Source: Arthrobacter sp. StoSoilB19 (GTDB lineage: Bacteria; Actinomycetota; Actinomycetes; Actinomycetales; Micrococcaceae). Taken from it: DNA of 64,000 nt. Every line of letters starts with the position of its first letter. Position 1 is the first letter of the stretch. Positions 32,620 to 45,411 of the stretch are shown piece by piece. The translations under genes and the position numbers were made by a program. The stretch spans positions 1,612,001 to 1,676,000 of the forward strand of contig NZ_AP024650.1 of assembly GCF_019977275.1 (NCBI RefSeq), read 5' to 3'. The notes below the pieces were generated by a model, which was not told where the DNA came from, did not search any database, and saw only the letters and a program-made list of their open reading frames with translations.

Positions 32620-33933
32620 GTGCCAGAACTGAACAACCTCGAACCGCAGCGCAACGATCCCACTTTCGCCAACATTTGGCAGGAACTGAAGTGGCGTGGG
32701 CTGGTCCATGTGTCCACCGACGAAGCAGAGCTTGAGAAGCTCCTCGCCGACGGGCCGGTCACATACTATTGCGGCTTCGACCCCACCGCCCCGAGCCTGC
32801 ACCTGGGAAACCTCGTCCAGCTCCTGGTCATGCGGCGGCTGCAGCTGGCCGGGCACAAGCCACTGGGACTCGTTGGCGGCTCCACGGGTATGATCGGCGA
32901 TCCCCGCCCCACCGCTGAACGAACCCTGAACACCAAGGACACGGTGGCGGAGTGGGTGGGCTACCTGCAGGCCCAGGTCAGCCGCTTCCTCAGCTTCGAG
33001 GGTGACAACGCTGCCAGGATCGTAAACAACCTGGACTGGACGGCGCCCTTGAGCGCCATCGACTTCCTGCGTGAAGTGGGCAAGCACTTCAGGGTTGGAA
33101 CGATGCTGCGCAAGGACGCCGTGGCATCCCGCCTGAACTCCGACGAGGGCATCAGCTACACCGAGTTCAGCTACCAGATCCTGCAGGGCATGGACTACCT
33201 GCAGCTCTACCGCGACTACGGCTGTGTGCTGCAGACCGGTGGTTCGGACCAGTGGGGCAACCTCACCAGCGGTACCGACCTGATCCGCAAGGTGGAGGGC
33301 AAGAGCGTCCACGCCCTGGGAACCCCCCTCATCACCAACTCCGACGGAACCAAGTTCGGCAAGAGCGAGGGCAACGCCATCTGGCTGGACGCGGGCATGT
33401 GCAGCCCGTACGCCTTCTACCAGTTCTGGCTCAACACCGCCGACGCCGACGTTGTGGACCGGCTCAAGGTGTTCACGTTCCTCACCCGGGCCGAGATCGA
33501 AGAGATCGCGGTTTCCGTGGCCGAGCGTCCCTTTGCCAGGGAAGGACAGCGGAAGCTGGCCTTCGAAGTGACCTCACTGGTGCACGGCGTGGACGCCACC
33601 GAAAAAGTCATCGCCGCTTCAGCGGCGCTTTTCGGCAACGGCGACCTGGCCGCACTGGACAAGGCAACGCTCCAGGCGGCTACCTCCGAACTTCCTTCGG
33701 CCACGGTGCAGGTGGACGGGATGGGGATCGTCGACCTGCTGGTGGCGTCCGGTCTATCGGAAAGCAAGTCCGCCGCCCGGCGCACCGTTGGTGAAGGAGG
33801 TGCCTACGTGAACAACGAGAAGGTGTCCGATCCGGAGGCCGTGATCTCCGAGTCTGAACTGTTGCACGGCCAGTACCTGCTCCTTCGCCGGGGCAAGAAG
33901 AACCTGGCCACTGTTGAGGTGCTGGTTCCCTAG
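32620..33933 (+). CDS. tyrS: Tyrosine-tRNA ligase
   Basis: A 437-residue class I synthetase. The HIGH-type motif appears as DPTAPSLHLGNLVQLLVMRR and the KMSKS-type loop as TKFGKSEGNAIW; YQILQGMDYLQLYRDYGCVLQTGGSDQWGNL is the tyrosine-binding region. The C-terminal S4 domain is complete (LVASGLSESKSAARRTVGEG, AYVNNEKV). GTG at 32620; both an AGGAAG and a -10-like TAACTT (32607-32612) lie just upstream. The rRNA operon promoter follows 40 bp after the stop. Confidence 0.96.
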   Translation: MPELNNLEPQRNDPTFANIWQELKWRGLVHVSTDEAELEKLLADGPVTYYCGFDPTAPSLHLGNLVQLLVMRRLQLAGHKPLGLVGGSTGMIGDPRPTAERTLNTKDTVAEWVGYLQAQVSRFLSFEGDNAARIVNNLDWTAPLSAIDFLREVGKHFRVGTMLRKDAVASRLNSDEGISYTEFSYQILQGMDYLQLYRDYGCVLQTGGSDQWGNLTSGTDLIRKVEGKSVHALGTPLITNSDGTKFGKSEGNAIWLDAGMCSPYAFYQFWLNTADADVVDRLKVFTFLTRAEIEEIAVSVAERPFAREGQRKLAFEVTSLVHGVDATEKVIAASAALFGNGDLAALDKATLQAATSELPSATVQVDGMGIVDLLVASGLSESKSAARRTVGEGGAYVNNEKVSDPEAVISESELLHGQYLLLRRGKKNLATVEVLVP

Positions 33934-34429: not shown

Positions 34430-39563
<5,134 letters not shown>

Positions 39564-39584
39564 CCACACAGATACATACAAACT

Positions 39585-39628
39585 CTGCTTGCGTCCACTA
39601 TGTGGTTCCCAACCAACAACCCCCAACA
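39585..39628 (+). promoter_or_regulatory. 3' arm of the 23S processing stem
   Basis: About 40 nt almost fully complementary to 36275-36314, enclosing the 23S gene; substrate for RNase III-type processing. Core pairing: ACTATGTGGTTCCCAACC with the boxA-containing strand. Confidence 0.75.
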
Positions 39629-39737
39629 CGCGGGGTTGTCACGGCACGGAACCACCACAACTGAATAACAACACCACAATGTTGTAACCACCAAACTTCC
39701 CACCCCCGAACAAAACACCGGGCGGGCGGGTACAAGG

Positions 39738-39856
39738 GTTACGGCGGTCATAGCGTGGGGGAAACGCCCGGTCCCATTCCGAACCCGGAAGCTAAGACCC
39801 ACAGCGCCGATGGTACTGCACCCGGGAGGGTGTGGGAGAGTAGGTCACCGCCGGAC
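39738..39856 (+). rRNA. rrf: 5S ribosomal RNA
   Basis: About 119 nt beginning GTTACGGCGGTCATAGCG and ending GGTCACCGCCGGAC, with the conserved CCGAACCCGGAAGCTAAGAC loop. The two ends pair to form helix I. Confidence 0.96.
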
Positions 39857-39867
39857 ACACATTGGTC

Positions 39868-39895
39868 GAGGCCCCAACCACCAGGTTGGGGCCTC
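39868..39895 (+). terminator. rRNA operon terminator
   Basis: A perfect 12-bp stem GAGGCCCCAACC (39868-39879)/GGTTGGGGCCTC (39884-39895) with loop ACCA, followed by CCCACATTT, 11 bp after the 5S gene. Confidence 0.9.
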
Positions 39896-39945
39896 CCACA
39901 TTTAACCCACCAACACCACAACGCGATCCCGCACCTAGGCCCCGT

Positions 39946-40074
39946 GACGCGCCATCAGGTCCTGTGCGGTTTGTGGGTGACGCGCCATCAGCTTTCGTCC
40001 CCTCACCGGAGACGCGCCATCAGCTTTCGTCCCCTCACCGGTGACGCGTCACCAGGTCCCGCGCCACGACAGAA
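39946..40074 (+). repeat. Array of four ~32-bp repeats (forward units)
   Basis: Units start at 39946, 39979, 40011 and 40043, each opening GACGCGCCATCAG (the last GACGCGTCACCAG). The second and third are identical over 31 bp. Spacing is 33, 32 and 32 bp, with no unique spacers. No gene is credible here. Confidence 0.85.
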
Positions 40075-40084
40075 GACTCTCACG

Positions 40085-40165
40085 AAGTGATGAGGCGTGG
40101 CCGGCGAACGGGCAGGATGTGATGGCGCATCCCGCGGAAACGGGCAGGATGTGCTGGGGCGTCGC
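40085..40165 (-). repeat. Inverted units of the same repeat family
   Basis: Read on the minus strand, units begin near 40165 (GACGCCCCAGCACATCCTGC), 40131 (GATGCGCCATCACATCCTGC) and 40098 (ACGCCTCATCAC). They share the GCGCCATCA core and spacing of about 32 bp with the forward units, to which they are head-to-head. Confidence 0.65.
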
Positions 40166-40342
40166 CTGTGAAGATGGCCACGATACCGCTCCCAAGGGGC
40201 CCGCTGTCCCTTGGGATTTTGCGGCTCCACTAGAATTGATGAAGATGTACGGACTTCGAAGCGCTTGATTTCGGGTTGCGTAGGAAACGAAACGAGCGGC
40301 TGCAGTTGCGCCAGTGGTCGGCTCACAACAGGAGGAATCCAT
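40166..40342 (+). promoter_or_regulatory. Upstream region of the KPFGDR/TPR gene
   Basis: Contains TTGGGA (40211-40216) and TAGAAT (40231-40236), spaced 14 bp, a sub-optimal promoter candidate. It ends with a near-perfect Shine-Dalgarno AGGAGG 7 nt before the ATG, the strongest in this region, suggesting high expression. Confidence 0.45.
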
Positions 40343-42241
40343 ATGGCCGAGCACAACGGGGGCAACCGCGGCAACGACCGCGGCGCGTTCCGCGGCAACA
40401 ACAACTCCGGCGGGGATCCCCGCGGATTCCGGTCCCGCTCCGACCGCGACGGCAACAGCCCCTCCCGCGGCGGTTCCGGGGCCGGCGGTGAGCGGAAGCC
40501 TTTCGGTGATCGTGATCGTAAGCCGTTTGGTGACCGTCCCCGCCGCGACGGCGAGGGTGACCGTCGCGGTTTCACCGGTGGTACTGGTGGCGGTGAGCGG
40601 AAGCCTTTCGGTGATCGTGACCGGAAGCCGTTTGGTGACCGTGATCGTAAGCCGTTTGGTGACCGTCCGCGCCGTGACGGTGAGGGTGACCCCGACCGGA
40701 AGCCTTTCGGCGACCGTGATCGTAAGCCGTTTGGTGACCGTCCCCGCCGCGACGGCGAGGGTGACCGTCGCGGTTTCACCGGTGGTACTGGTGGCGGTGA
40801 TCGTAAGCCTTTCGGGGACCGTGATCGTAAGCCGTTTGGTGACCGTCCCCGCCGCGACGGTGAGGGTGACCGCGACCGGAAGCCTTTCGGGGACCGTGAC
40901 CGGAAGCCTTTCGGCGACCGTGATCGTAAGCCCTTTGGTGACCGTCCGCGCCGTGACGGTGAGGGCGACCGCCGCAGCTTTGGCGGTGGTGACCGTGACC
41001 GGAAGCCTTTCGGTGACCGTCCGCGCCGCGAAGGCGAAGGCGACCGCCGCGGCTTCGGTGGCGAGAACCGCAAGCCGTTTGGTGACAGGCAGGATCGCGC
41101 ACCGCGCAGCTTCGACCGCGGCGACTCCCGGGCCGAATCAGGTCGTGGCGGCTCCGGCCCCCGCGGCTTTGGCCGCGACCGCCAAGAGGAGCGCCCTGTC
41201 CGCGTGCCCAACGCCGCAGACCTTCGCAGCGCCAACCGCCCTGACCGGGAACGCTCACCCGAGATCGATGAGGACGTCACGGGCAAGGAACTGGACCGAG
41301 CCACGCACCACCAGATCAAGACCCTTGAGCCCAAGAGCGCAGAGTGGGTTGCCCGTCACCTGGTGATGGCCGGCCGCCTTATCGACGACGAGCCCGAGCT
41401 TGCCTTCCAGCACGCCCTCGCCGCCAGTCGTCGTGGCGGACGGCTCGCAGCCGTCCGCGAGGCCGTTGGCCTGACGGCCTATGCTGCCGGCCATTACGGT
41501 GAGGCACTCCGCGAGTTCCGCACCTTCCGCCGGATCAGTGGTTCCAACGTGCACCTCCCCGTGATGGCCGACTGCGAGCGTGGCCTGGGGCGCCCCGACC
41601 GTGCCCTCGATGTTGCCCGCTCGGAGGAAGCCCGGGACCTTGACGCGCCCGGCAAGGTGGAACTGGCAATCGTGGCAGCCGGTGCACGGACCGATCTGGG
41701 CCAGCCGGACGCGGCAGTAGCGGAACTGGAGATTCCGCAGCTGGACATCAACCGTGCCTTCTCCTACAGCCCGCGACTCTTCCGTGCCTACGCCGATGCA
41801 CTTGCAGCGGTGGGACGCCAGGAAGAGTCGGAAAAGTGGAACCGCCAGGCGGTCGTGGCAGAAAACGCGCTGGGCCAGGGTGCGGACCAGGAACCCGAAA
41901 TCATCGACCTCGGCTGGGACGAGGAAGAAGAGGCACGGGAAGAGGCTGAGCGACGCCGGCTGCTGGAGCGTGCCTCCGGCGCCGCCGAAGCCGAAGCTCC
42001 CGCTGAAACCCCCACCGCCGGTGACGCAGACGCCGAAGCTGAAAGCACCCGCGCTACCGAAGCGGAAGCAGCCCAGGACAGCAACCTGGACGACCAGGAC
42101 GCCGACTACTTCGTCTCCGACGACGCCGAATCGGACCAGGACTCGGTGGAACGGGACGAGCTGGATTCCGAAGCTGCCGGTGATGCCGAAGCGGAGGACA
42201 GCGGTGCCACCCAGCATGATGAAGAACGCCGGGAAGACTGA
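40343..42241 (+). CDS. Repeat-rich disordered / TPR protein with acidic tail
   Basis: A 632-residue protein in three parts. Residues 1-310 are disordered, Arg/Gly/Asp-rich, with 14 copies of KPFGDR between residues 52 and 250, mixed with RPRRDGEGDRRGF and GGTGGG. Residues about 315-510 are helical and TPR-like (AEWVARHLVMAGRLIDDEPE, AFQHALAASRRGGRLAAVRE, GLTAYAAGHYGEALREFRTF, AVGRQEESEKWNRQAV). Residues 525-632 are strongly acidic. Its position before the HAD gene and tlyA corresponds to M. tuberculosis Rv1691, a TPR protein without the repeats (from memory). RGG-like regions often bind RNA, and the rRNA operon is next door; function is unknown and any RNA role is inference. Confidence 0.75.
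   Translation: MAEHNGGNRGNDRGAFRGNNNSGGDPRGFRSRSDRDGNSPSRGGSGAGGERKPFGDRDRKPFGDRPRRDGEGDRRGFTGGTGGGERKPFGDRDRKPFGDRDRKPFGDRPRRDGEGDPDRKPFGDRDRKPFGDRPRRDGEGDRRGFTGGTGGGDRKPFGDRDRKPFGDRPRRDGEGDRDRKPFGDRDRKPFGDRDRKPFGDRPRRDGEGDRRSFGGGDRDRKPFGDRPRREGEGDRRGFGGENRKPFGDRQDRAPRSFDRGDSRAESGRGGSGPRGFGRDRQEERPVRVPNAADLRSANRPDRERSPEIDEDVTGKELDRATHHQIKTLEPKSAEWVARHLVMAGRLIDDEPELAFQHALAASRRGGRLAAVREAVGLTAYAAGHYGEALREFRTFRRISGSNVHLPVMADCERGLGRPDRALDVARSEEARDLDAPGKVELAIVAAGARTDLGQPDAAVAELEIPQLDINRAFSYSPRLFRAYADALAAVGRQEESEKWNRQAVVAENALGQGADQEPEIIDLGWDEEEEAREEAERRRLLERASGAAEAEAPAETPTAGDADAEAESTRATEAEAAQDSNLDDQDADYFVSDDAESDQDSVERDELDSEAAGDAEAEDSGATQHDEERRED
40496..41092 (+). repeat. Coding DNA repeats for KPFGDR units
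   Basis: Fourteen units of about 21-24 bp encoding (D/E)RKPFGDR, arranged in larger blocks of two or three separated by RPRRDGEGD segments. Codon choices vary slightly between copies (CGGAAGCCTTTCGG against CGTAAGCCGTTTGG), so units have been duplicated and shuffled. They create long misleading open frames in other frames. Confidence 0.92.
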
Positions 42242-42246
42242 CAAGC

Positions 42247-43236
42247 ATGACTGACGTTTCACTGGTTTCCCGCTTCGATGCACTGCTCGCCGACCTGGAC
42301 GGCGTGGTCTATGCCGGGCCCCACGCCATTCCCGGAGCTGTGGATTCACTGCAGCAGCTCTCCGGCCTGGGTATCGGCCTGGGCTATGTGACGAACAACG
42401 CCTCCCGCTCCCCGGCGGAGGTGGCAGCGCATCTCCGTGAGCTTGGTGCCCCCGCCGAGGACAACCAGGTGGTCAGTTCCTCGCAGGCGGCAGCCGAGCT
42501 CCTGGCCTCGCTGCTTCCACCAGGGTCCAGGATCCTCATCACGGGCAGCACGGCGCTTGCCCGCGAAATTGAACTGGTGGGCCTGGTGCCGGTGGGCAGC
42601 CAGGCGGAGGAACCGGTCGCGGTCGTCCAGGGTTTCAGCCCAACCATCGGCTGGAAGGACCTGGCAGAGGCCACCTACGTGGTGTCCTCCGGGGCGCTTT
42701 GGGTGGCCACCAACACGGACATGTCCATTCCCCACGCGCGTGGCATCGCCCCGGGAAATGGCACCTTGGTTGCCGCTGTCGCTGCTGCCACGGGGCAGCA
42801 GCCCAAGGTTGCTGGAAAGCCCGAAGCTCCGCTGTTCCATTCGGCAGCCAAGCGCCTCGGGGCCGAGCGTCCCCTGGTGGTCGGCGACCGGCTGGACACG
42901 GACATCCTGGGCGGCAACAACGCCGGCTTTGCCACCGTTGCTGTCCTGACCGGCGTCGACACGCGCGAAACCATTCTGGCCGCGAGGTCTGCGGAACGGC
43001 CCAACTACATCATCGAAAACCTGGCCGGCCTGCACCGCCCGTACCCCGAAGTGACGCACGACGACGGCACGTACACGTGCGGCCAGTCAACGGCGCGCGT
43101 GGCCAACGGAGCCGTGGGCATCATTGGCAGCCAGGACCAGCTCGACTCCTGGCGGGCCGCATGTGCGGCCTGGTGGGCGGCGACGCCGGACGCCGCAGCC
43201 CCGAAGGCGCCCAAGCTGGTGTGGCTGGATCACTAG
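42247..43236 (+). CDS. HAD-IIA family sugar-phosphate phosphatase (NagD-like)
   Basis: A 329-residue hydrolase. HAD motif I is LADLDGVVYAG (nucleophile Asp and acid/base Asp); motif II is YVTNNASRSP; the C2-type cap lies between about residues 80 and 190; motif III Lys is in VAGKPEAPLF; and motif IV is VVGDRLDTDILGGNNAGF. These are marks of NagD/glycerol-3-phosphate phosphatase-like enzymes; substrate unknown. Begins 5 bp after the TPR gene, so probably co-transcribed; same order in M. tuberculosis (Rv1692, from memory). Confidence 0.88.
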   Translation: MTDVSLVSRFDALLADLDGVVYAGPHAIPGAVDSLQQLSGLGIGLGYVTNNASRSPAEVAAHLRELGAPAEDNQVVSSSQAAAELLASLLPPGSRILITGSTALAREIELVGLVPVGSQAEEPVAVVQGFSPTIGWKDLAEATYVVSSGALWVATNTDMSIPHARGIAPGNGTLVAAVAAATGQQPKVAGKPEAPLFHSAAKRLGAERPLVVGDRLDTDILGGNNAGFATVAVLTGVDTRETILAARSAERPNYIIENLAGLHRPYPEVTHDDGTYTCGQSTARVANGAVGIIGSQDQLDSWRAACAAWWAATPDAAAPKAPKLVWLDH

Positions 43237-43245: not shown

Positions 43246-43557
43246 ATGACCGAGCTGACCGCACCGGACGACGCGACAGCCCAGCCGGCCCCGGAGTGGC
43301 CGCAGCCAGGCGGGATGGACCTCACCGATCCGCGGGTTGCGCAGGCCGTAGCCAGGCTTTTCGACATGCCCGGGCTCCCTGTCCCGGACCACGGGACCGT
43401 CTACGACGACCTTCACGATGAACTGCTGGCCGCCCTCAACGCCGATCCCGCAGGCACCGATCCTGCAGACGCCGATCCCGCAGGTGCTGATCCCGCAAAG
43501 ACCGCCCCCACCGGGACCGGCTCCACACTGCCCGGTCCCGCCGGGGGTGCAGCCTGA
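43246..43557 (+). CDS. Small conserved-position protein of unknown function
   Basis: A 103-residue acidic protein I do not recognise as a domain family. The N-terminal half has MTELTAPDDATAQPAPEWPQ then GGMDLTDPRVAQAVARLFDM, a likely helix, and DLHDELLAALNADP. The C-terminal third is a DPA-based low-complexity run (ADADPAGADPAKT). A short gene occupies the same slot before tlyA in mycobacteria (Rv1693, from memory). The stop overlaps the tlyA start (TGATG), so it is coupled to TlyA synthesis. Confidence 0.65.
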   Translation: MTELTAPDDATAQPAPEWPQPGGMDLTDPRVAQAVARLFDMPGLPVPDHGTVYDDLHDELLAALNADPAGTDPADADPAGADPAKTAPTGTGSTLPGPAGGAA

Positions 43558-44372
43558 TGCCGGTTCGCCTCGACCAGGCACTGGTGGCACGCGGGCTGGC
43601 GAGGTCGCGCACCCATGCCGCGACGCTCATCGCCGAAGGCAAGGTCAGCTCCGGTGGCCAGGTCCTCGCCAAGGCCTCCCTCCAGGTTGATGACAGCCGG
43701 GACCTCGCAGTCGAACACGATGACCAGGACAGCTACGCCAGCCGCGCGGGCCATAAGCTGGCCGGGGCCCTCGACGCCTTCCCCCAAGTTTCGGTGGCGG
43801 GCAAGAGGTGCCTGGACGCCGGCGCCTCCACCGGGGGCTTTACCGATGTCCTGCTTCGGCGGGGTGCCGCGCACGTGGTGGCTGTCGACGTCGGACACGG
43901 CCAGCTGGTGCCGCACCTCCGCGACGACCCCCGCGTGGACGTCCATGAAGGCATGAACGTCAGGTACATGGCGCCGGAAGACATTGGCGGCCCGGCAGCG
44001 CTGACCGTCGCCGACCTGTCCTTTATTTCCCTCACCCTCGTGGTCCAGCCACTGGCCGGCTGCACCGAACCAGGCGGGGACCTGGTGCTGATGGTCAAGC
44101 CCCAGTTCGAGATCGGCAAGGACCGCCTGGGCCGCACCGGCGTGGTCAACTCGGAGCGTGAGCGGCGGATGGCCGTGGAGAAGGTGGCCAGGGCAGCGCT
44201 CGACGCCGGCCTGGACCTTTGCGGGCTGGCGGCCAGTCCGCTGCCGGGGCAGGACGGAAACGTCGAATACTTCCTGTGGATAAAACGCAGGATCAGCAAA
44301 GACTTGCCTAAGATCGAAGAGCGAGAGGCAGCAGCCGCTGCGTTGCTCGGACAAATCTGGCCTAACCACTAG
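43557..44372 (+). CDS. tlyA: TlyA family rRNA 2'-O-methyltransferase
   Basis: A 271-residue protein. N-terminal S4 RNA-binding domain (VRLDQALVARGLARSRTHAA, EGKVSSGGQVLAKAS), then an FtsJ-like SAM domain (CLDAGASTGGFTDVLLRRGA, VAVDVGHGQL, ADLSFISLTLVVQPL, VKPQFEIGKDR with the catalytic Lys). In mycobacteria TlyA methylates 16S C1409 and 23S C1920 and makes ribosomes sensitive to capreomycin; loss gives resistance. ATG overlaps the preceding stop. Followed at 13 bp by nadK. Confidence 0.94.
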   Translation: MPVRLDQALVARGLARSRTHAATLIAEGKVSSGGQVLAKASLQVDDSRDLAVEHDDQDSYASRAGHKLAGALDAFPQVSVAGKRCLDAGASTGGFTDVLLRRGAAHVVAVDVGHGQLVPHLRDDPRVDVHEGMNVRYMAPEDIGGPAALTVADLSFISLTLVVQPLAGCTEPGGDLVLMVKPQFEIGKDRLGRTGVVNSERERRMAVEKVARAALDAGLDLCGLAASPLPGQDGNVEYFLWIKRRISKDLPKIEEREAAAAALLGQIWPNH

Positions 44373-44385
44373 AGAGCGGAACCTG

Positions 44386-45411
44386 ATGAGCAGGCGTGTA
44401 CTGGTCCTTGCCCACACCGGCCGCGAGGAATCACTGAAAGCCGCCTGGGAAGCCTGCGCCCTGCTGCACGCCTCCGGCATGGTCCCCGTGATGCAGGAGT
44501 CCGAACTGGGGGACATGGAAAGGTTTTTTGGGCACCTGGCCCAGCCGGTGGAGGTCCTCCACGACCACGTCCAGCTGCCCGATGTGGAACTCGTCATGGT
44601 CCTTGGCGGTGACGGCACCATCCTGCGGGCCGCCGAACTGGTCCGTGAGGTGGATGTGCCGCTGCTGGGCGTCAACCTGGGCCACGTGGGCTTCCTGGCC
44701 GAAAGCGAGCGGGCGGACCTTGCCCAGACCGTGGAGTGGGTTGCCAGCCGCGAGTACACGGTTGAAGAGCGCATGACCATCGATGTCCAGGTCTGGGTCC
44801 GCGGCCAGAAGATTTGGCACACCTGGGCTTTAAACGAGGCCGCCATCGAGAAGGCCAACCGCGAACGCATGCTCGAAGTCGTGACCGAGGTGGACGAGCG
44901 CCCGCTGACGTCCTTCGGCTCAGACGGCATCGTGCTGGCCACCCCCACCGGATCCACGGCCTACGCGTTCTCGGCGGGCGGTCCGGTGGTCTGGCCGGAG
45001 GTGGAGGCCCTGGTCATTGTGCCCATCAGCGCCCACGCGCTCTTCGCCAAGCCCCTGGTGGTGTCGCCCAGGTCGAAGCTTGCGGTGGAGGTGCTGGGCC
45101 GGACCGACGCCCAGGGCGTGCTGTGGTGCGACGGACGGCGCTCGGTGGACCTGCCGCCGGGAGCCCGCGTGGAAGTGACCAAGTCCGCCACTCCTGTCCG
45201 GCTGGCCCGCACCCACCAGACGCCGTTCTCCGCCCGGCTGGTCCGCAAGTTCGAGCTGCCCATCCACGGCTGGCGCGGGCCGGTCCCCAAGTCCGACGCC
45301 GTGCACACCGGCCCCATCCCCATTGTGCGGACGCCGCGGCCCATGCCGCCGCTGCCCGTGCCGCATGTGGAGAACTCCGACAGCGATCCCGATCCGTCGA
45401 CTGCAAAGTGA
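44386..45411 (+). CDS. nadK: NAD kinase
   Basis: A 341-residue kinase making NADP. N-terminal RRVLVLAHTGREESL; the diacylglycerol-kinase-fold motif VMVLGGDGTILRAAELV (GGDGT) and GVNLGHVGFLAE; the conserved NE-containing ALNEAAIEKANRERM; and GIVLATPTGSTAYAFSAGGP. The C-terminal 40 residues (PKSDAVHTGP onward) are a Pro/Asp-rich extension beyond the usual fold. Four bp separate it from recN, in the usual tlyA-nadK-recN operon. Confidence 0.96.
   Translation: MSRRVLVLAHTGREESLKAAWEACALLHASGMVPVMQESELGDMERFFGHLAQPVEVLHDHVQLPDVELVMVLGGDGTILRAAELVREVDVPLLGVNLGHVGFLAESERADLAQTVEWVASREYTVEERMTIDVQVWVRGQKIWHTWALNEAAIEKANRERMLEVVTEVDERPLTSFGSDGIVLATPTGSTAYAFSAGGPVVWPEVEALVIVPISAHALFAKPLVVSPRSKLAVEVLGRTDAQGVLWCDGRRSVDLPPGARVEVTKSATPVRLARTHQTPFSARLVRKFELPIHGWRGPVPKSDAVHTGPIPIVRTPRPMPPLPVPHVENSDSDPDPSTAK

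Follow-up and report, generated by a model that had tools for sequence, protein, structure and literature searches.

An Arg-rich TPR protein encoded behind the rRNA operon in Actinomycetota

Genes and signals at the locus

The window analysed here, a 64,000-nt stretch of DNA from Arthrobacter sp. StoSoilB19 (NZ_AP024650.1, positions 1,612,001 to 1,676,000), contains an rRNA operon with protein-coding genes on either side. The order on the plus strand is tyrS, 16S-23S-5S, a gene for an Arg-rich protein with a TPR core, a HAD-IIA phosphatase gene, a small open reading frame (ORF), tlyA, nadK and recN, the last being named by position and by comparison with the mycobacterial operon.

32644-33933, plus strand: tyrS, upstream neighbour of the rRNA operon (TIGR00234, E 5e-116)
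34430-39856, plus strand: rRNA operon 16S-23S-5S (Rfam), with 16S at 34430-35952, 23S at 36438-39567 and 5S at 39740-39856, all plus
39868-39895, plus strand: rrn terminator-like hairpin directly 3′ of 5S (12-bp stem; -28.7 kcal/mol, z -5.4)
40167-40187, plus strand: block TGTGAAGATGGCCACGATACC, with partial conservation in the genus, perhaps a regulatory or promoter element (alignments)
40231-40236, plus strand: TAGAAT, candidate -10 element, kept in 76 relatives (alignments)
40237-40342, plus strand: leader of ~106 nt, strongly conserved in the genus, including the Shine-Dalgarno sequence (alignments)
40343-42241, plus strand: ORF for a 632-aa protein with an Arg-rich disordered region, a TPR core and an acidic tail (translation)
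42247-43236, plus strand: HAD-IIA family phosphatase gene, downstream neighbour (TIGR01460 above cut-off)
43557-44372, plus strand: tlyA, rRNA 2′-O-methyltransferase, same cluster (TIGR00478 above cut-off)
44386-45411, plus strand: nadK, same cluster (NF002892 above cut-off)

The 632-aa ORF begins 486 nt beyond the end of 5S, upstream of tlyA. Its place behind an rRNA operon and ahead of tlyA, as given in the initial annotation, is confirmed by the Rfam and TIGR00478 matches, and the near-perfect Shine-Dalgarno sequence described there is AGGAGG at 40330-40335, 7 nt before the ATG. The ORF is real, and its start codon and leader are kept in 76 relatives. A 443-aa antisense ORF (40003-41334, minus strand) was dismissed as a by-product of the GC-rich coding repeats. 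The small ORF between the HAD gene and tlyA (43246-43557) is Ala/Pro-rich and occupies the position of Rv1693; an NCBIfam search with it returned no match.

The hairpin at 39868-39895 is interpreted as the rrn terminator because a comparison of the rrn operons of this genome found it to be common to four of the five; that of the operon at 783 kb (L252) is unlike the other four. The spacer that follows 5S (39900-40140) contains repeats (GACGCGCCATCAGCTTTCGTCCCCTCACCGG), and a long stretch of it recurs in the spacer following the 1,021-kb rrn operon (L253), a sign of exchange between rrn flanks.

The protein, its repeats and its core

The three parts first described for this protein, KPFGDR repeats, a TPR-like core and an acidic C-terminus, are all recovered by translation, composition and predicted fold.

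40343-41254, plus strand: N-terminal Arg-rich region, residues 1-304, disordered by composition, with low pLDDT just before the core
40496-41089, plus strand: array of 14 KPFGDR units, residues 52-249 (tandem-repeat search, motif count)
41255-41917, plus strand: conserved TPR-solenoid core, residues 305-525 (alignment, AlphaFold2, structure search)
41918-42238, plus strand: acidic C-terminal tail, residues 526-632, lacking in part of the family (composition)

No family is named for the whole protein by NCBIfam, and Pfam gives nothing above cut-off. The AlphaFold2 model of the core is a helical solenoid built of successive helix pairs (mean pLDDT 78.9, most core blocks 84-96), and its leading structural neighbours in Foldseek and VIA searches are TPR proteins, with VIA Z up to 16.7; the TPR-like core is thereby borne out. 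The Pfam TPR gathering score is not reached, TPR_2 giving at best 13 bits against 27 (17.6 with the core alone), and 33 of 43 relatives searched one by one match TPR_2 at E up to 0.1, the best at 5.6e-9. Profile matches to PDB sequences (designed TPR, SRP72; E 0.011 to 0.3) were too weak to count as relatives. MamA, the consensus TPR, PilF and YrrB have the same helical-pair solenoid at a sequence identity of only 8-20%, with MamA aligning over 175 residues (VIA Z 16.7, rmsd 4.5). None of the four is known to be linked to rRNA operons, and the fold common to the core and these scaffold proteins shows no function. Across 96 sequences the core is ~50% identical between families, and the invariant residues include R367, R372, E373, Y380, R393, R397, D410 and R413. 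This pattern would suit a conserved binding surface and not a loose scaffold.

The 14 KPFGDR units initially reported are exactly what a motif count returns, and a relaxed scan requiring four of the six residues adds no degenerate copy to these 14. The array is tandem by TRF (periods of 24, 75, 99-105 and 204 nt, scores to 688) and is more than chance. Its copies are encoded by seven different DNA sequences. Repeat number is variable in the genus (3 to 19 KP[FY] copies) and blocks of 75-105 bp have been duplicated, as in a neutral minisatellite without function. This explanation is highly improbable and already contradicted, both by the Arg content kept throughout the class and by the strong synonymous excess between copies: pS is 0.57 and pN 0.03 in this gene, a pN somewhat lowered because copies were picked by similarity, although the relaxed scan of this gene found no degenerate ones. 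Repeat copies of another locus (L214) give 0.50 and 0.01, and the same contrast is seen in the differing repeats of most other lineages. Since copies differ far more at silent than at amino-acid sites, the repeats are under amino-acid selection.

KPFGDR itself occurs only in this genus and its close relatives, in line with the lineage specificity suspected at first. In other lineages the same place is taken by GGFKPREDR, RRPFQRDDR, SGYRGGEGRRDDR, RPYEKRDG, RSYGPRSGDDSRGG or RRDDRRDD, and in some by short Arg/Ser/Pro-rich tails in place of repeats. All 60 class-level N-termini (lengths approximate, start codons having been picked by script from Shine-Dalgarno strength) have 17-36% Arg, against 5-9% in neighbouring proteins, and a net charge of +6 to +43. 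Arg richness is the conserved property of the N-terminus, built from differing repeats by lineage.

RGG/RG-box RNA-binding proteins include FUS, nucleolin and GAR1, and Arg-rich tails are also found on DEAD-box helicases. These proteins are Arg/Gly-rich and disordered by composition and contain aromatics and tandem repeats, as does the protein described here, in which residues 1-290 are 23% R and 22% G and form an Arg/Gly-rich region. The "RGG-like" label of the initial annotation thus holds for composition and fails for the tripeptide itself: the translation contains only two RGG. Unlike the RGG/RG-box proteins, this one has a repeat unit with many Asp, a bacterial TPR partner domain and no RNA-binding domain of known type.

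The same composition had also been likened to that of RNA-binding proteins that form condensates. Compatibility with RNA binding stands, whereas the Phe stickers and the acidic tail (42 D/E versus 9 K/R among its 107 residues here) are missing from many lineages. Aromatic residues are nearly absent from the N-terminus in several families, the acidic tail is missing in the measured members of families f10, f26, f32 and f33, and N-termini go down to 66-110 aa among the lineages that keep the protein while nearly devoid of both. Their absence in f10, f32, f33 and others argues against condensates of opposite-charged ends as a shared function. A scaffold of RNA-degradation or mRNA condensates, similar to BR-bodies, would have the aromatic and Arg repeats phase-separate while the TPR domain recruits nucleases. 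Such a role is decidedly unlikely given these absences, even with the regular F/R/D/G repeats of this genus and several others and the large opposite end charges of the protein here. Condensates are possible in long-repeat lineages such as this genus and would not be the shared family feature. The fast-changing repeats, kept in composition, amount to a natural experiment on the needed features of a disordered, RNA-binding-like tail; Arg has been kept, and aromatic residues and the acidic tail have not.

Distribution and linkage to the rRNA operon

The genome has one copy of the gene, which represents a so far unnamed actinobacterial protein family, spread through most of the class and reaching other classes of the phylum. 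Among genomes of good quality, the core was found in 96/96 of the genus, 143/144 of the family and 253/268 of the class, including streamlined genomes of 1.3-1.4 Mb. Beyond the class, a profile matches many but not all genomes of the phylum's other classes (E mostly 1e-13 to 1e-40), so that the conservation of the TPR part in actinobacteria, proposed from the single locus, extends to these divergent relatives. An apparent second copy in one genome (G034) was left uncounted: each of the two sits ~28.1 kb from an end of the same contig, which gives it the look of a circle left unclosed. Many draft contigs (L032, L071, L084 and others) stop within the repeat array or at the upstream rrn operon, so that short-read assemblies are likely to cut the gene short or omit it.

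Gene order, with an rrn operon upstream, is the chief new finding. In loci with at least 8 kb of upstream sequence, a co-oriented 5S lies within ~5.2 kb of the start in 68/73, and within 200 nt in 37 of these 68; with shorter loci included, 42 have a 5S-to-start gap below 200 nt. Twelve families from other classes are represented among the rrn-linked loci, and tlyA stays with the cluster in several loci outside the class as well. The single-locus context noted at first is thus refined to a linkage that extends through much of the phylum. The rrn neighbour is missing in L203, L224, L241, L243 and L269. Twenty mostly complete genomes have 1-8 5S genes in 1.3-9.7 Mb, so chance adjacency would be well below 1% per genome. 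The loci share descent, and the count accordingly measures retention, not independent origin; contiguous assemblies supplied most of them, since draft contigs break at rrn operons. The order tyrS - rrn - gene - HAD phosphatase - tlyA - nadK - recN is best explained as a single ancestral rRNA operon locus of which the gene is part. Conserved gene order is no proof of functional coupling.

The mycobacterial cluster Rv1691-Rv1692-Rv1693-tlyA-ppnK-recN (PMC3072309) has the same downstream layout as here (HAD, small ORF, tlyA, nadK, recN), and Rv1691 and MSMEG_3754, its reported orthologue (PMC7092591), carry a TPR annotation. This likeness is drawn from annotation, neighbourhood and the relatives in f10. 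The f10 relatives are 49-50% identical to the core here, two of them (L177, L178) have an R-rich N-terminus as here, and three f10 loci (L267, L268, L270) have the same rrn and tyrS neighbours. The measured f10 proteins differ from the protein here in lacking KPFGDR repeats and the acidic tail. Mycobacterial rrnB likewise sits behind tyrS (PMC10218544, which covers the promoter side). No discussion of the gene behind rrnB was found in the open literature, and absence there is no proof that it is unreported.

Two rrn operons occur in each of three complete genomes (G125, G203, G379) from one genus of family f33, together with two near-identical copies of the gene, both of which follow a 5S. The duplicate copies are at L274 and L275 in G125, L278/L283 in G203 and L279/L284 in G379. 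The repeat unit of G125 spans 6,678 bp (99.2% identity), extending from after tyrS to the last codons of the gene, and the gene there acts like a component of the duplicated rrn unit. In this genome tyrS precedes one copy, and the HAD gene, tlyA and nadK follow the other; these flanks suggest recombination between the two rrn-gene units.

These data bear on whether the gene merely inherited its place. Under simple hitch-hiking, the locus order would be inherited and the function unrelated to rRNA, the protein for instance serving ClpC1 as adaptor or substrate, or acting as a general TPR adaptor. That tyrS, tlyA, nadK and recN are likewise conserved neighbours is consistent with such a history, as is the listing of MSMEG_3754 in the ClpC1 interactome (PMC10433963). 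The duplication and homogenisation of the gene together with rrn in one genus is harder to reconcile with it, as is an rrn neighbour commoner than tyrS (68/73 versus 44/73, the 9-kb limit of the loci perhaps accounting for part of the tyrS shortfall). Hitch-hiking is on the whole rather doubtful.

Proposed role and expression

An Arg-rich flexible front joined to a TPR domain and encoded behind the rRNA genes probably helps to handle newly made rRNA. The reading we favour, at a probability of roughly one half, is that of an rRNA-locus factor that would bind pre-rRNA or ribosomal subunits and act in rRNA maturation or ribosome assembly. The disordered N-terminus may bind RNA, most likely nascent pre-rRNA or assembling subunits, and the TPR solenoid could use its invariant charged residues to dock a protein partner. 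The protein, produced beside the rRNA genes, would then serve as an rRNA folding, processing or assembly factor, to which the long aromatic repeats of this genus may add multivalent or condensate-like behaviour. The wide distribution of the core, the rrn linkage, the duplication in one genus, the retention of tlyA, the conservation of Arg, the constraint on the repeats and the invariant R/E/D/Y residues of the core all argue for it. Hints of an own promoter in this genus and the lineages with no rrn neighbour argue against it, as does the ClpC1 listing. If tied to rRNA operons, this near-universal and essentially unstudied protein would be a lead on ribosome building in actinobacteria, a phylum that includes Streptomyces and mycobacteria.

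Besides the ClpC1 listing, the experimental data found come from one study: in M. smegmatis, MSMEG_3754 was one of 275 proteins pulled down with crosslinked RNAP beta, and a FLAG pull-down directed at MSMEG_3754 itself recovered no DNA (PMC7092591). This is in keeping with an assembly factor; the breadth of the list weakens this support. It could also reflect a factor associated with RNAP or transcription, whose Arg-rich tail would contact nascent RNA with the TPR domain attached to RNAP or to a transcription factor, as might happen while rRNA is transcribed. The location of the gene at rrn would suit that role equally; the broad list and the failure to recover DNA speak against it, and we consider it unlikely.

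In the 76 relatives, the DNA upstream of 40167-40342 has diverged, while the conserved box, TAGAAT and the leader are kept, which makes an own promoter likely in this genus. No good -35 was seen for TAGAAT, and a consensus promoter and terminator scan of 39700-40400 gave no hits, including for a sigma-70 promoter; for terminators, GC-rich hairpins that lack long T runs escape such a scan. The leader shows no significant fold (z -0.8), and little structure emerged from RNAalifold; a riboregulator in the leader is accordingly not proposed.

The usual layout across loci is 5S, a GC-rich hairpin of ~12-20 bp, the Shine-Dalgarno sequence and the start, in some with just ~20-50 nt beyond the hairpin before the gene. 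Many other families have little space for an own promoter between 5S and start. TANNNT between hairpin and start is not clearly enriched in the 42 loci with gaps below 200 nt (17 seen, 12.8 expected), and together these make read-through possible in such families. A bolder and less likely proposal is that the gene is a distal protein-coding cistron of the ancestral actinobacterial rRNA operon. Read-through of the terminator hairpin would let the dose of an Arg-rich pre-rRNA chaperone follow rRNA synthesis, and the nascent N-terminus would emerge beside new rRNA. Co-oriented adjacency across lineages, as such a cistron would have, is present (68/73; 37 within 200 nt). Two congeners (L225, L226) have ~3 kb between 5S and the gene, apparently an insertion.
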